From Burkholderiaceae bacterium (GTDB taxonomy: Bacteria > Pseudomonadota > Gammaproteobacteria > Burkholderiales > Burkholderiaceae_C), in the NCBI GenBank assembly GCA_013360485.1, contig JABWBN010000003.1, positions 1 to 57,859 of the forward strand: DNA of 57,859 nucleotides. Reading direction: 5' to 3'. Position numbers and translations under genes: made by a program. Below are positions 16,662 through 25,031 of this stretch, piece after piece. The number at the start of each line of letters is the position of its first letter. Within the stretch, counting starts at the first letter, position 1. Under the pieces are notes generated by a model that was not told the DNA's origin, ran no database searches, and saw only the letters and a program-made list of their open reading frames with translations.

Positions 16662-17972
16662 TCAAGACCTTAGCGAACGGCGGAGATCGCCCCTCTCTGC
16701 TGCCGTTCGCGGTTCCGCGAACAGGCCTGGCAGTCCAGACTTGGCCGCGAGCAGCGCAGGATGCTCGCCTGTGGCCTTCCACGTCAGGCCGCAGGCAGCC
16801 ACCAGCAGCGAGCGCACCGGGGCGATGGCGGCGATCAGCTGCCGACGGATGCCCGAGGCCCGGCTCGGTGAGCGTTGAGCACGCTTGGCCGCAATGAGTT
16901 CGAGCAGCCGCGTGCGCAGTTCGGCTGCCCGGTCTTCGTCCTGGGCCAGCTCAGCCAACTCTTGCAGCAGCGGCTGGTACTGCCGCGACCAGTCGATGGC
17001 CAACACTGCGTCGTCGGCGCATTGGCGCCAGAGATCGGCGGCGCGGCGCTGGAACATGAGGATGAACTGGTCGGTGGCCGTCAGCAGGCAGTAGCGCAGG
17101 AAGCAGGCCATTTCGACGGTCCGTGCCCGCTCCTTGATGCGCTCGCTGATCGACGGTGGCCGTGTGGCCATGCGCCGGGCGTAGCGGCGCACGAGCGCAT
17201 CGTTGAGCTCGCCCAGGTATCGATCCAGGCCCAGGCCGTTGAGGAAGGTGATGCGCTCGAGCACTTCGGCGATCTGGCGCGTGGAGTGCTTGGCCGGCGC
17301 GCTCCACAGCCAGCTCTGGCAGTGCTGGCCGTCCGGCCGGGTGGCAGCCACAGCAGCGGCCCACTGCTTCAAGGCAGTGGCCGACACCGTGGCCCGGATG
17401 AACGCGGCCGTGGCGGCCTCGAGGTCGGCCGGTGCGGCCGCCACCAGCGCCCGGATGGCGCGCTCGTGCACGATGATCAGCCTGTGCTCGTACAACCAGT
17501 GCCGGGCCCGCAGCAGCAGCCGCTCGCGGTCGGCGGTGTGGGCCACCTCGTCGCGCAAAATGCGCACCAGTGCGCGGCGCTGGTGTTCGCTCATCCAGGC
17601 AAAGCCCAGGACCTCGCAGGCCTGCTGCTGGTGATCGAACAAGGTCCGGCCGCGCGAATACAACGCCCGCAGCGATGCCAGATCGGGCGTGGCGATGTCC
17701 AGCGTCTGGCCCAGGTGCCGCAGCAAAGCAACCGGCACGGCGCGAACGCTGTTCAAAGGCCGCCCGCTCATGCGCACGAAACCGATGTGCAGCGCCAGGC
17801 CCAGCTTGTGGTGGTCGCCCCTGCGCCGTTCGATCAGCTCCCGCTCGGCGAGGCTGAAGGTGAAGAAGGCCTGCAGCTCGAACGGGCTGAACTCACGCGG
17901 CAGCTCACGCAGGCCCAGGTACGGTGGGTGCCAGCCCTGCATCGCCGCCGCTCCCCACGAGTCGAAAGGCAA
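16662..17972 (-). pseudogene. Tn3-family transposase, N-terminal remnant (DUF4158 type)
   Basis: About 430 residues of a transposase that is normally close to 1,000. LRELPREFSPFELQAFFTFS and ERELIERRRGDHHKLGLALH are the DUF4158 opening of IS1071/Tn4651-type Tn3 transposases, and the middle (RITFLNGLGLDRYLGELN) continues the family pattern. The catalytic DDE part is absent: after about 16700 the frame enters unrelated sequence and stops. The gene reads away from the terminal inverted repeat at 18060-18095, about 90 bp upstream of its start, as in intact elements. The element cannot transpose by itself. Confidence 0.88.
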
Positions 17973-19697: not shown

Positions 19698-20413
19698 AGC
19701 GGTCTTCTCCGGTCGAAAGGAATGGGCGCGCGCCCATTTGTCGGGCGCTGCACACCAACCGCGTGCCCTCTGAGATTTTAGGGGACCCGGCATGCACCAT
19801 CCTGCCCTGACCTTGTGGCACTGCGCAGGTGCAGTGAAGCGATTTGCCGTCGGTGCATGCCAATGCCCTAGCTAGCCCCGGAGCTTGCGGAAACACCCAT
19901 GACAAAGTGCTGGTTGGATGACCCAGCCACGAGGGAGATCTCGTCTTGAGCGGGCCTCTGATGAAACGGGCTGCAGGTCCCGCTGAGTTCGCCAAGCCGG
20001 TGCTTCACCTGTGCCCGCCCATGGTGGCGTTCGCGACCGGGCTGCCATGGGTCAGTCCATTTGGAGTGCTCATTCATTCTTCTGCAATACGCCTACGCCC
20101 CAGTGCGACATGCACTCCAAGATTTGCGTGAAGCACCCTGCGGCAATAAACTTTAGCCATGAGTTTTACCCTGTCCCTAGCCGCGTTCGGCGGTGCATTC
20201 AGCGAGGCGGCATTCTTTGCTGCCGTGTCGCTGTGCACGCCGCAGTTGCGTGCCGGGATGGGGACTCACACCCGTCAGCCGGCCGCACATCCTTAGGCCC
20301 GGCGATCACCTCCACACCAGTTGCGCAAACCTCAGATCGCCGGGCTCCCAGCCCGCGCGTAGATGCGTGTCTCCGACCCGGAGGCACTCAGCTTGACACT
20401 GAAGGAACGCCCC
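19698..20413. other. Intergenic region between divergent gdhA and rnk
   Basis: About 716 bases without a supported gene; it must hold the gdhA and rnk promoters. A 45-codon frame (20159-20296, beginning MSFTLSLAAFGGAFSEA) is hydrophobic but has no ribosome binding site and no known relative. A small inverted repeat CACTGC-GCAGGT-GCAGTG lies near 19820. No tRNA or riboswitch was recognised. Confidence 0.5.
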
Positions 20414-20836
20414 GTGGAAGTGACCACCCTCGAGCGCACGCTCACTGAACTGGACCATGTCCGCCTCCTGAACCTGCTCCGCCGCGATGCACGCGGTGAC
20501 GGTTCACCGCATCAAGTCCGTGCCATCGAAGACGTCTTGGAGGCCTCCGCGCTCGTGCCTTCGCGCGAGGTGGCACCCGACGTCGTGACGATGTATTCGA
20601 AGGTCCTGCTGCAGGACACCCAGACCGGCCAGCGAAACACGCTGACCCTGTGTTACCCCGCGGATGCCGAGCCGGCGGTTGGATTCGTGTCTGTGCTGTC
20701 CCCGGTCGGCAGCGCTTTGCTCGGCCTGCGGGTCGGCAGCATGGCCCGCTGGTCTACCCCTGCTGGCGATGAAAGGGCGGCCGAGATTCTGGCCATCCTC
20801 TTCCAGCCCGAGTCGAGCGGCGACTACGCGATGTAG
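20414..20836 (+). CDS. rnk: Nucleoside diphosphate kinase regulator, Rnk
   Basis: A 140-residue protein with a short helical N-terminus and a GreA/GreB C-terminal-type domain, thought to bind RNA polymerase near the secondary channel. Family motifs are PDVVTMYSKVLLQD, VLSPVGSALLGLRVGS and ILFQPESSGDYAM. The start used is GTG at 20414, with AAGGA 7 bases upstream, which gives the usual Rnk length; the track ATG at 20363 has no ribosome binding site. A second Rnk domain occurs at the end of the operon downstream, fused to an acetyltransferase. Confidence 0.9.
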   Translation: MEVTTLERTLTELDHVRLLNLLRRDARGDGSPHQVRAIEDVLEASALVPSREVAPDVVTMYSKVLLQDTQTGQRNTLTLCYPADAEPAVGFVSVLSPVGSALLGLRVGSMARWSTPAGDERAAEILAILFQPESSGDYAM

Positions 20837-20979: not shown

Positions 20980-22026
20980 ATGACGTCATTCAAATCCATT
21001 CTGGCGGCAACCGATTTTTCGGTTGACGGAAACAATGCAGTGCGCCGCGCGGCGCTGTTGGCGCATGAGCACGGAGCCCGCCTTCACATCCTGCACGTTC
21101 TGAATGCGGCAGGCTGCAAGCCGCTGCGCGACTGGTTCTCACCGACCTTGGACTTCGACCTCAAGGCCGCACAGGCGCGCGACGCGCTCCGGCGCCTGTC
21201 CGTCGAGATATCGGGTGCCTACGACTTGACCGCCAGTGTCGAGGTCATCGTCGGCGACACGTTCGAGACGCTGATGCAGGCGTCGGAGCATGTCGACCTG
21301 GTGGTGCTCGGACGACGGGGTCACGGCCGCTTCAAGGGATTGCTCGTCGGCAGAACCGTCGATCGCATGCTCCGAATCGGCGGGCGTCCTGTCCTCGTCG
21401 TCAAGACATCGGTGCATGGGACCTATCGGCGTGTCCTGGTACCCATCGACTTCACGGCCTCGTCGGATGCGGCGATTCGCGTCGCTGGCCGGATGCGCCG
21501 CGAGGAAGGCATGCATGTGTTCCACGCCATCAACTCCAAGCGAGAGGCCGTGCTGCGCGATGCCGATGTTCCCGAGCACGTCATCAGGGAGTCGCGCCTG
21601 ATGGAAGAAGGCGCGGTCAACGCTCGCATGCGTCGCAAGGTCTCCAGACTCGGCCTGGACGGCGCGTCCATGAACTATGCGCTGGCGTACGGCCACCCGG
21701 TGCGATCGACCCTGCGTCACGCCCACAGGCTCGGTGCCGACCTCATCGTCACCGGGAAACAGGGTCGTTCAACCTTGGGCAACTTCCTTCTCGGCAGCGT
21801 CAGCAGCCGCGTCCTGTCCGAGGCGTCTTGCGACATGTTGATCGTGCCGCGGCCGCTGGACAGTTCTCCGCCGGAGGCTGCGAAAGCGGTTGCGGCTCGA
21901 CGGAACTCGGAGCGCTACATCGACAACGCGGCCCTTGCCCAGAGCGCGGCAGCGCATGCCGGGGCCTTGACTCATGACCATTGGATCCACAACAAGGCTC
22001 GATTCGTGTCGCGGAGATCGTCATGA
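20980..22026 (+). CDS. Tandem universal stress protein (two UspA domains)
   Basis: A 348-residue cytosolic protein with two UspA folds. Domain 1 (about 1-145) starts FKSILAATDFSVDGNNAVRRAALLA and contains VVLGRRGHG...VGRTVDRML. Domain 2 (about 146-290) starts YRRVLVPIDFTASSDAAIR and has the complete ATP-binding signature G-x2-G-x9-G-S in TGKQGRSTLGNFLLGSVS. About 55 extra residues follow without a recognisable domain. GAGGAG precedes the ATG. The stop overlaps the next start by 4 bases (ATGA), making this the first gene of a coupled operon. Confidence 0.93.
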   Translation: MTSFKSILAATDFSVDGNNAVRRAALLAHEHGARLHILHVLNAAGCKPLRDWFSPTLDFDLKAAQARDALRRLSVEISGAYDLTASVEVIVGDTFETLMQASEHVDLVVLGRRGHGRFKGLLVGRTVDRMLRIGGRPVLVVKTSVHGTYRRVLVPIDFTASSDAAIRVAGRMRREEGMHVFHAINSKREAVLRDADVPEHVIRESRLMEEGAVNARMRRKVSRLGLDGASMNYALAYGHPVRSTLRHAHRLGADLIVTGKQGRSTLGNFLLGSVSSRVLSEASCDMLIVPRPLDSSPPEAAKAVAARRNSERYIDNAALAQSAAAHAGALTHDHWIHNKARFVSRRSS

Positions 22027-22316
22027 GGCTGATGCAAATGCCGTGGACCGCGCTGTTGGACATGCAGCCGCAGAGGAGTCACCAGATCGCATGGTTCGTC
22101 TACGGATGGGTCGAGCGCGAACACGTCCTGAACGTGACCGCCTGTGCGGATTGGTGGATGCGAGCGCTTGGGCTATCGACGGCTCAGGTTAAGGCCTCTC
22201 CGCAGGGTACTCGGAACACTGGTGCGCAGGCCGAGCCCCAGGTGATGGTCCACGACAGTGGCCGAGCCGAAACCCATCGCCGCGGATCTCGGCGTCGACT
22301 GGAGTCGCTCCCATGA
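22023..22316 (+). CDS. Small protein of unknown function in the usp operon
   Basis: A 97-residue frame whose ATG overlaps the usp stop (ATGA) with GGAG 6 bases upstream, and whose own stop overlaps the next gene's ATG (again ATGA). That double coupling is the main reason to accept it; the track lists the frame from 21981. The first two thirds look protein-like (MRLMQMPWTALLDMQPQRSH, QIAWFVYGWVEREHVLN), with aromatic-rich amphipathic segments. The tail is basic and less convincing. No domain recognised. A shorter or non-coding spacer remains possible. Confidence 0.5.
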   Translation: MRLMQMPWTALLDMQPQRSHQIAWFVYGWVEREHVLNVTACADWWMRALGLSTAQVKASPQGTRNTGAQAEPQVMVHDSGRAETHRRGSRRRLESLP

Positions 22317-23194
22317 AAATCTCTTCAACCGCACTCAAGGCAAAGCGCTCCTGTGCAAGCGGCTACCGCTGGTTCGCCCGGCGATTCAAGAGTCCGGCCG
22401 AGTACCAGAGCGTGATCGACGCACTCGTCGCCGACGGACGCGTCGACGACGCCTGCTGGCTGCTTGAGCAGTTCGGCCCCATCAAGTCCGTTCTCGTGGT
22501 CGATGCCATTTCTGCGCATGCCTTCGTCTATGCGGGATCGGTCCAGGTGCGTGGCGAGGTGGATGTCGACGCCATGCTTCGCACGGGGGGCTCGTTGAAA
22601 GCAGGCGGCAGCATTCGCGCCGGCAATGCGATCTGGATCGGCAACGATCTGCACGCCGGTGCTGGCCTGCGCACACTCGGATCGTTGCGCACCGGCGGCG
22701 ACCTGGTCTCGTCCTGGAGCGTCGAGGTGCACGGCGCCCTGACGTGCGGCGGCGACCTGCGGGTCCGCGGAGCCTTGGCCTGTGGGGCGGCGATGCGTGG
22801 CGAGGGTTCGACCGTGGTGGCCGAGGACCTCGAGGTCAACGGCATGATCCATTGCGAAAAGAGCCTGCAGGTCGGCGGCGATCTGGTTTGCACGGAAGGT
22901 CTGCGCGCCGGGCACGGGATCCAGGTCGGCCAGTCGATTCGCACCGGCATGCACATCGACGCCGGCTGGGGCATCGTTGCCGGATCGGACATCACGGGCG
23001 AGGGTGCCATCCGGGCCGGCGAGTGCATCGTGAGCGGCGGCAGCGTCCGGGCGGGCGCCGGCTTCAGCCTCTACGCCGGGCTGAGTGTCCGCCGCGATGC
23101 ATGGCCCTCGTGTGGGCGTGTGGTGTCGCGGACGCGCCCCGAGAATCTGCTCAGCGGCTTCTGGGACCGCGTTCCTTGCGGAGCATCTGCATGA
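22313..23194 (+). CDS. Hexapeptide-repeat beta-solenoid protein in the usp operon
   Basis: A 293-residue protein with an N-terminal domain (KSPAEYQSVIDALVADGRVD) and then about 30 consecutive six-residue repeats covering some 180 residues. The repeat pattern is an aliphatic residue, three variable residues, usually Gly, and one variable residue, for example LKAGGS IRAGNA IWIGND. This predicts a left-handed parallel beta-helix or bactofilin-like solenoid of about ten turns. There is no signal peptide or membrane segment, so it should be cytosolic. Acyltransferase hexapeptide proteins have fewer repeats and extra catalytic loops, which are not seen here, so a structural or scaffold role is more likely. 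It is coupled by 4-base overlaps to both neighbours. Confidence 0.8.
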   Translation: MKISSTALKAKRSCASGYRWFARRFKSPAEYQSVIDALVADGRVDDACWLLEQFGPIKSVLVVDAISAHAFVYAGSVQVRGEVDVDAMLRTGGSLKAGGSIRAGNAIWIGNDLHAGAGLRTLGSLRTGGDLVSSWSVEVHGALTCGGDLRVRGALACGAAMRGEGSTVVAEDLEVNGMIHCEKSLQVGGDLVCTEGLRAGHGIQVGQSIRTGMHIDAGWGIVAGSDITGEGAIRAGECIVSGGSVRAGAGFSLYAGLSVRRDAWPSCGRVVSRTRPENLLSGFWDRVPCGASA

Positions 23195-24108
23195 TCGCCC
23201 CGTTCGGACCCATCCTCGTGGCGACCGATTTCTCCGGGCATGCCCGCCATGCCGCCGCGAGGGCGGCGCGCCTGGCACACGACACCCATTCGGCGCTGAC
23301 ACTGATGCACGTTCTGCCTGCGCAGCCGGTGACGAAGGTCCGCAAATGGCTGGGTGCCTCGAGTGCGCGTGAGCGGAAGGTGTGCGACGAAGCGCGCCGG
23401 CAACTGTGCCAGCTCGCCTCGGAACTTACCAGCGTGCGGCGCGTCGAGTTCGACATCGAGGCTGCTGCCGGCTCCGCCCCGGACGAGATCGTGCGGGCGG
23501 CCGATCGCGTGGATGCGCGGCTGTTGGTCTTGGGTGCACGCGGCGCCGGATTCCTGCGTCGCCTGGTGCTGGGCACCACCTCGCAGCGCCTGGTGCGCCG
23601 CACGGACCGACCCCTGCTGGTCGTGCGGCAGACGGCGGCTCGGTCGTACCGGCGCGTGCTGGTGGCGGTCGACTTCTCACCTCGGTCGCGCCATGCCTTG
23701 AACCTCGCGCAGCGCGTTGCGCCAAACGCGAAGCTCGTGATCCTGACGGTGTTCGAGGTGCCGTTCGAGGGGAAGATTCGCTTTGCCGGCGTCGATGACG
23801 CGACGTTCGAGATCTATCGCAAGCGAGCGCGCGCGGAAGCGCTGCGACAGCTGCACGCACTGGCCCACGAGGCCGGTCTCTCGCCCTCGCAGTGGGAGCC
23901 CTCTGTGGTGGAGGGGGACGCTTCACGACGCATCGTCGAGCAGGAACAGTCACGCAACTGCGACTTGGTCGTGCTGACCCCGCACGGTCAATCGGCCGCC
24001 GCGGACCTGCTGCTCGGCAGCGTGACCAGGCACGTGCTCGTCGAGGGCCATGTCGACGTGCTCTTGTCCACACGAATGCCTGGTCAGCCCATCCGCCCAT
24101 GGGAGTGA
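23191..24108 (+). CDS. Second tandem universal stress protein
   Basis: A 305-residue two-domain Usp. The ATG overlaps the solenoid gene's stop (ATGA); the track ORF starts 149 codons too early. Domain 1 begins FGPILVATDFSGHARHAAARAARLA, with the ATP signature LGARGAGFLRRLVLGTTSQRLV. Domain 2 begins YRRVLVAVDFSPRSRHALNLAQ and ends LTPHGQSAAADLLLGSVTRHVL. Both domains keep the G-x9-G-[ST] part, so nucleotide binding is likely. It is only modestly similar to the first Usp in the operon, so the pair is not a recent duplication. Confidence 0.92.
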   Translation: MIAPFGPILVATDFSGHARHAAARAARLAHDTHSALTLMHVLPAQPVTKVRKWLGASSARERKVCDEARRQLCQLASELTSVRRVEFDIEAAAGSAPDEIVRAADRVDARLLVLGARGAGFLRRLVLGTTSQRLVRRTDRPLLVVRQTAARSYRRVLVAVDFSPRSRHALNLAQRVAPNAKLVILTVFEVPFEGKIRFAGVDDATFEIYRKRARAEALRQLHALAHEAGLSPSQWEPSVVEGDASRRIVEQEQSRNCDLVVLTPHGQSAAADLLLGSVTRHVLVEGHVDVLLSTRMPGQPIRPWE

Positions 24109-24110
24109 AG

Positions 24111-25031
24111 ATGAACCGGCCCTTCGTTTCGCTGTGTCCCGAGATCACCCGGTCTGACGCGCTCAAGCTGATGGGCTGGCTTGAAGACGAGTGCGTGACC
24201 CGCCACCTCAGCGATTCGCGCCATGTCTCCCGGTTCATCGAGCAGGTCATTGATCGGGTTCAGTTGCCCATCCTGACCCATCTGTTCAACCAGGGCGGCC
24301 GCTTCTTCATGGTCTGCGACGAGCATGACCGGCCAGTGGGGTTCGTGCGCCTCGTCATGGCGGGACGGGTCTGCGAGATGGTCCTGGTGATCGGCGACCG
24401 CGACAACTGGGGCCGTCGGCTCGGAGCCAGCGCCATCCGGGAAGCCATGAAACGCGCCTTCTTCGAGATGCGCGCGGAGCGGCTCGTCGCCAAGGTTCAC
24501 CGGGACAACGTGCGTTCGCTGAAGGTGTTCCAGCGATCCGGATTCCTGCTCGAAAGCCAGTCCCCTGCCCTGGTGAGCTTTGCAATGACGTCGGAGCGCT
24601 ATCTCCGGCGCTTGCGCGAAAGCCCCGCAGGTCACACCGACCACATCCACATCGCCGAGACCGATCAGGCAAGGCTCAGGAATCTGATCGCGTTGGACCC
24701 GGCGTCGGCCAGCTTCGAGCTGGAGCACGAGATCGAACGCGCCATCGTCGTCGATTCCCGGCAGATGCCTCGGGATGTCGTGACGATGAACTCGCGCGCC
24801 TTGCTGCACCTGGACGACGATGCGGTGGAAGTAGCGCTGGTCTACCCGGACGACGCGGACGACGCGGACGACAGCGCCCGCAGGCTGTCGGTCTGTGCTG
24901 GGATCGGCACCGCGATCCTGGGTTACCGGGAGGGCGATGCTTTCGACTGGCGACTCCCGGACAGGACCTGCCGCATTCGGATCGGGCGGGTGCTTTACCA
25001 GCCGGAGGCTGCGGGGGACCTTCACCTGTAA
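24111..25031 (+). CDS. GNAT acetyltransferase fused to a Rnk domain
   Basis: A 306-residue fusion. Residues about 1-170 form a GNAT fold: VGFVRLVMAGRVCEMVLVIGDRDNWGRRLGASAI holds the acetyl-CoA site, and NVRSLKVFQRSGFLLE the conserved last strand and helix. Residues about 180-306 form a Rnk/GreA-C-type domain (PRDVVTMNSRALLH, VCAGIGTAILGYREGD, VLYQPEAAGDLHL). A small in-frame DNA repeat encodes DDADDADDS within the Rnk part. The ATG has GGGAG 5 bases upstream and lies 2 bp after the usp stop, so it is the last gene of the operon. The fusion hints at acetylation of something near RNA polymerase; that is inference. Confidence 0.88.
   Translation: MNRPFVSLCPEITRSDALKLMGWLEDECVTRHLSDSRHVSRFIEQVIDRVQLPILTHLFNQGGRFFMVCDEHDRPVGFVRLVMAGRVCEMVLVIGDRDNWGRRLGASAIREAMKRAFFEMRAERLVAKVHRDNVRSLKVFQRSGFLLESQSPALVSFAMTSERYLRRLRESPAGHTDHIHIAETDQARLRNLIALDPASASFELEHEIERAIVVDSRQMPRDVVTMNSRALLHLDDDAVEVALVYPDDADDADDSARRLSVCAGIGTAILGYREGDAFDWRLPDRTCRIRIGRVLYQPEAAGDLHL

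Follow-up and report, generated by a model that had tools for sequence, protein, structure and literature searches.

A capped hexapeptide beta-solenoid protein of Burkholderiales with phage relatives and recurrent Rnk-type gene neighbors

Left-handed hexapeptide acyltransferases are built from repeats with the register [LIV]-[GAED]-x2-[STAV]-x. Bactofilins form a right-handed, triangular beta-helix and polymerize end to end via a short core of ~110 aa that carries unstructured tails on either side (PMC12448750). In E. coli, ydhYVWXUT, an operon activated by FNR, ends with the gene for YdhT (PMC3688515). Here we compare with these systems a capped hexapeptide beta-solenoid gene (22313..23194, + strand; 293 aa) found in a 57,859-nucleotide stretch of a Burkholderiaceae bacterium (contig JABWBN010000003.1), referred to as the window. 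It is a real bacterial gene under constraint, because its orthologues are 39–96% identical and the whole-gene dN/dS is 0.11–0.22, indicating purifying selection. A minus-strand ORF at 22325-23302 is regarded as spurious, the conserved frame being the plus one.

A first-pass annotation had claimed a regular hexapeptide period at 22490-23100, and this period is present. When residues 65–238 are split into hexads, 28/30 begin with an aliphatic residue (I/L/V/M/F), and the period-6 spectral power of 4.28 is far beyond that of 5000 shuffles (at most 1.59). The coordinates also agree, with the repeat starting at residue 60/65 and ending at ~242 (~22490-23038 of the window). The description of the repeats as near-perfect applies to the aliphatic position and not to glycine, which is found in 16/31 hexads at its best position. 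Each hexad reads as an aliphatic residue (i), an outward residue (i+1), a small inward A, V, or C (i+2), and then G. The solenoid stretch (residues 60–242; 22490..23038, +) holds ~30 hexads, or ~10 coils of 18 residues. The hexads have diverged, and the DNA shows only a weak 18-bp array of 2.3 copies.

As the annotation had anticipated, AlphaFold2 (with 25 orthologues) predicts a continuous beta-solenoid without loop insertion at high confidence (mean pLDDT 91.4; ~98 over residues 60–241), with helices at 5–54, strands recurring at six-residue intervals between 60 and 241, and a C-terminal element that includes a helix at 261–267. The first 20 residues, at the start of the N-terminal cap, are modeled with low confidence (pLDDT 51–54). 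Independently of the model, column coevolution has its maximum at lag 18 (3.55 sd; top among lags 3–59), and similarity within the sequence is greatest at three and six hexads; three hexads therefore appear to form one coil, giving a triangular solenoid of ~ten coils. This predicted fold is well supported, and the solenoid measures 182–184 residues in 25/25 aligned chromosomal members. A Foldseek search gave no PDB match at E <= 0.001, and we found no solved structure for this family. The flat, open ends that had been envisaged for the beta-helix are not seen in the prediction, which instead closes the solenoid with conserved caps, a helical one at the N-terminal end and another at the C-terminal end.

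The N-terminal cap (residues 1–59; 22313..22489, +) carries the motif C-x2-G-x2-W-F ... Y-Q ... A-x-W-L-L-x2-F-G, and the C-terminal cap (residues 243–284; 23039..23164, +) carries G-[YF]-[GS]-[VIL]-[YF]-A-G-L ... W ... V ... P-x2-L-x-S-G-x-W. The N-domain is the most conserved part (3.26 bits), ahead of the C-cap (2.73) and the solenoid (2.20). The protein is likely cytosolic, because its N-terminus opens with a helical domain and shows no hydrophobic leader. When caps only are compared by hhalign, the N-cap matches phage N-caps (99.9%, E 4e-31) and the C-cap matches phage C-caps (99.3%, E 1.6e-20); a full-length pairwise match was also found, supporting a relation to the phage proteins. The two caps define one family, composed of a Burkholderiales chromosomal branch and a diverse phage branch, and the novelty lies in this family and its phage branch, not in the repeat itself. 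Matches to PPR and tail-fibre proteins were discarded as driven by repeats or helices.

The N-cap is also similar to YdhT-type N-domains (hhalign 99.4% over 53 columns), and the NCBIfam model NF007410 (YdhT) scores 19.7 bits against the window protein, over residues 5–47 only and with a cut-off of 300. The N-domain is modular, being joined to other repeats of nine residues (such as GSSGYNARI and TGDWANAAT) in L066, L075, L112, L113, L114, and E. coli ydhT (L035:4748-5560). Control of the window gene by an FNR-type site (TTGATN4ATCAA) was considered and rejected, as no good site lies ahead of the gene and the nearest (21982) is poor; across the window, there are 17 two-mismatch matches to this site vs 6.35 expected.

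The phage form combines caps like those of the window protein with a variable number of near-identical I-[E/K]-A-G-X-G repeats, which the window protein does not have. The number ranges from 13 to 39 hexads (65 arrays, including relatives with another N-cap), and in L116 the repeats are encoded by an array of 18-bp DNA units. A phage homologue is modeled with the same capped-solenoid architecture (pLDDT 94.8). One viral-contig scan yielded 170 related stretches, and the 79 viral loci L116–L194 include at least two N-cap and at least two C-cap types. Many of the 79 carry the same repeat with another N-cap ('ITK-DL ... DFDG-IEIE') and C-cap ('LRIFAGLC-WR-P'), and these are placed with the phage form by the solenoid repeat alone. 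Identity of E or K at a lag of three hexads is under chance (z -3.0), which is only suggestive given the 24 tests made. For the phage form (L044/L116), neither Pfam nor PHROGs gave a notable match and NCBIfam gave only a composition-type one far below cut-off, and our literature searches returned nothing on these I-[E/K]-A-G-X-G proteins. Its neighbors with recognizable function include anti-repressors, transcriptional regulators, helicases, exonucleases, and methyltransferases, while in annotated phages a YdhT-type relative follows an anti-repressor in one setting and lies between N and cIII in another. The phage protein therefore looks like an early, intracellular one.

In a tree of the caps, which is unrooted as to the order of phage and chromosome, all 24 chromosomal sequences lie on one side of a branch with support of 100/99. 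Phage-related ancestry is well supported; the chromosomal lineage was seemingly fixed once in Burkholderiales and would either descend from a widespread phage early protein of like architecture or share a common ancestor with it. Within the family of the window genome, 26/251 genomes were matched (about a tenth), 24 of these over most of the length, and full-length chromosomal members also occur in further Burkholderiales families. In a class-wide sample, full-length matches were confined to the window genome and a single further member of its family, and distant phylum-wide matches were set aside as mostly unrelated repetitive proteins. Some copies are altered: the one at L007:8001-8765 has lost its C-cap in frame, the L031/L034 gene is broken over two frames, and the L045 copy has an in-frame stop.

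In the window, the solenoid gene follows a Rnk-type gene encoding a GreA/GreB C-terminal domain (20363..20836, +), which is a recurrent neighbor, a universal stress protein (Usp) gene (20980..22026, +), and a small ORF of 97 aa (22023..22316, +). It is followed by a second Usp gene (23191..24108, +) and by a gene that joins a GNAT domain to a Rnk N-terminus/GreA C-domain (24105..25031, +; start approximate, longest ORF 23892-25031), an uncommon domain pairing. The small ORF has no Pfam match but is conserved in close relatives, with the motif QxAWFxYGxxEREHxLNxxACxxWW in L004, L005, L006, and L007. Its stop overlaps the start of the solenoid gene as ATGA, and the stop of the solenoid gene overlaps the second Usp start in the same way; these overlaps at both junctions suggest an operon with translational coupling. 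Near the cluster, a DUF4158 protein is encoded at 16665-17972 (-). This domain is the N-terminal part of Tn3-type transposases and suggests a mobile element or its remnant.

Among 32 chromosomal loci, 13 have a Rnk-type gene for a GreA/GreB C-domain adjoining the solenoid gene or within ~2.2 kb on the same strand, a link that reappears in several lineages. Only two to six Rnk/GreA-type genes are present per genome in the eleven genomes checked, and two of the four in the window genome flank the solenoid gene. A GNAT-like gene, called by motif and a weak profile match to diamine acetyltransferase (E 0.26), is immediately downstream in 9/32 loci, and at L092:7020-8561 (-) the solenoid and a GNAT-like protein share a single open frame of 504 aa. 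Usp genes are adjacent in 6/32 loci. Rnk, GNAT, and Usp neighbors are missing at many chromosomal loci, so there is no universal partner.

We considered whether the protein could belong to one of the described hexapeptide families. The annotation had noted the absence of acyltransferase loops, and the model has no loop insertion; nor is there a Pfam or NCBIfam match to an acyltransferase family even at E 10. A left-handed hexapeptide acyltransferase with a lost or hidden active site would explain the six-residue period and the appearance of LpxD and GlmU among the weak top Foldseek matches (E >= 0.06), but those matches have a TM of only ~0.15–0.23 and an rmsd of 11–15 Å, and the hexad register of the window protein (aliphatic, small residue two positions on, G) is the reverse of the acyltransferase one, which leaves this explanation very improbable. 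The same register and failed superposition argue against the left-handed helix first proposed; together with a profile match to the right-handed bactofilin 6ria, they make a right-handed solenoid likely. That match (Thermus, E 0.0073) is the nearest, though weak, between the family profile and a solved structure, and along with the repeat resemblance and a weak match to Pfam Bactofilin PF04519 (14.6 bits, E 0.04) it would be consistent with a cytoskeletal protein polymerizing end to end, as would L032, a relative whose C-cap is similar and which exceeds the Pfam Bactofilin cut-off (L032 also scores 15.9 bits against FapA PF03961, with a cut-off of 31). However, the window protein itself falls below the gathering score of 27.9 bits, the solenoid length is constant in chromosomal orthologues, and the window genome already carries a separate, clear bactofilin gene. 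Both ends of the solenoid also bear conserved caps, in place of the short core and unstructured tails of bactofilins (PMC12448750). Of the initial interpretation, the solenoid and the absence of an acyltransferase hold, and the suggested left-handedness and end-to-end polymerization are unsupported. The protein is probably not a bactofilin-type filament, and we regard that identity as quite unlikely; assembly side by side or through the caps would still be compatible with the model.

On balance, we lean toward a soluble, non-enzymatic, capped triangular (probably right-handed) solenoid that is phage-related and acts as a scaffold in transcription and stress control, its role and partners being suggested by gene linkage. 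The helical N-cap and small C-cap would close the ~ten-coil rod at both ends, and the protein would most likely act as a monomeric or small-oligomer scaffold in which the N-cap docks to a partner and a binding surface is offered along the solenoid's long side. The likeliest partners would be its operon neighbors, the GreA/Rnk-type RNA-polymerase-binding factor and the GNAT-like protein, in a stress response. It is also conceivable, but unlikely, that the protein has no specific partner, being a structural filler or resembling a stress chaperone, and that its neighbors are only co-regulated. This would fit the differences in neighbors among lineages and the Usp genes on both sides of the window gene. 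Invariant residues in the N-cap, a solenoid of constant length, and strong purifying selection instead suggest that a specific interaction takes place, and the association with Rnk-type genes returns in several lineages. A phage-type decoy or DNA mimic, blocking a defence protein or one that binds DNA and comparable to the pentapeptide-repeat gyrase-binding proteins, agrees with the phage early-gene position, the rod-like solenoid, and a slight net negative charge. That charge amounts to only -6 across 184 residues of the window protein, and the second position of the phage repeats balances E (50%) with K (45%), unlike a strongly acidic mimic, so we consider such a role distinctly improbable. 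If a scaffold is indeed encoded, the window protein becomes a candidate partner for Rnk-type factors, whose function was termed unknown in a 2015 review (PMC4598747).

A broader and more speculative possibility, which we hold to be rather unlikely as a whole, is that phages hold a large unrecognized family of beta-solenoids that work inside the cell, in which the I-A-G-G core is invariant and each hexad turns two variable positions outward (one near-binary E/K; the other W/E/S/L/T/D/C). Repeat number and pattern might be changed by recombination of the 18-bp units, giving a variable surface against host proteins, and one lineage could have been domesticated in Burkholderiales as a fixed adaptor for transcription control of the Rnk/GreA type. 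The phage form would offer a simple natural model for repeat proteins whose surface varies around an invariant core, and a domain definition is now available for a large number of proteins that lack annotation, tied by the N-domain to the E. coli YdhT type.

Compared with known systems, the window protein has the six-residue period and triangular coil of LpxA, LpxD, and GlmU, but with a reversed register, no superposition, and no catalytic family match. Like bactofilins (PF04519), it is predicted to form a triangular beta-helix with aliphatic-rich repeats and has weak profile similarity to them, but it is longer (~10 coils), capped at both ends, below the cut-off, and found in another gene context. 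The I-x-A-x-G-D register of FapA/DUF342 (PF03961), recognized by eye in distant, repeat-only, FapA-looking matches such as L051 and L052, is similar, whereas the caps are not shared and FapA gives no match to the window protein. YdhT (NF007410) and its phage relatives have a homologous N-terminal helical domain, but the repeat of YdhT spans nine residues (R-I-x3-G type) and its C-terminus differs. The phage I-[E/K]-A-G-X-G proteins (e.g., L116–L137) share the N-cap, hexad register, C-cap, and predicted fold, and differ in that their repeats are near identical and vary in number, whereas those of the window protein are diverged and fixed in number.
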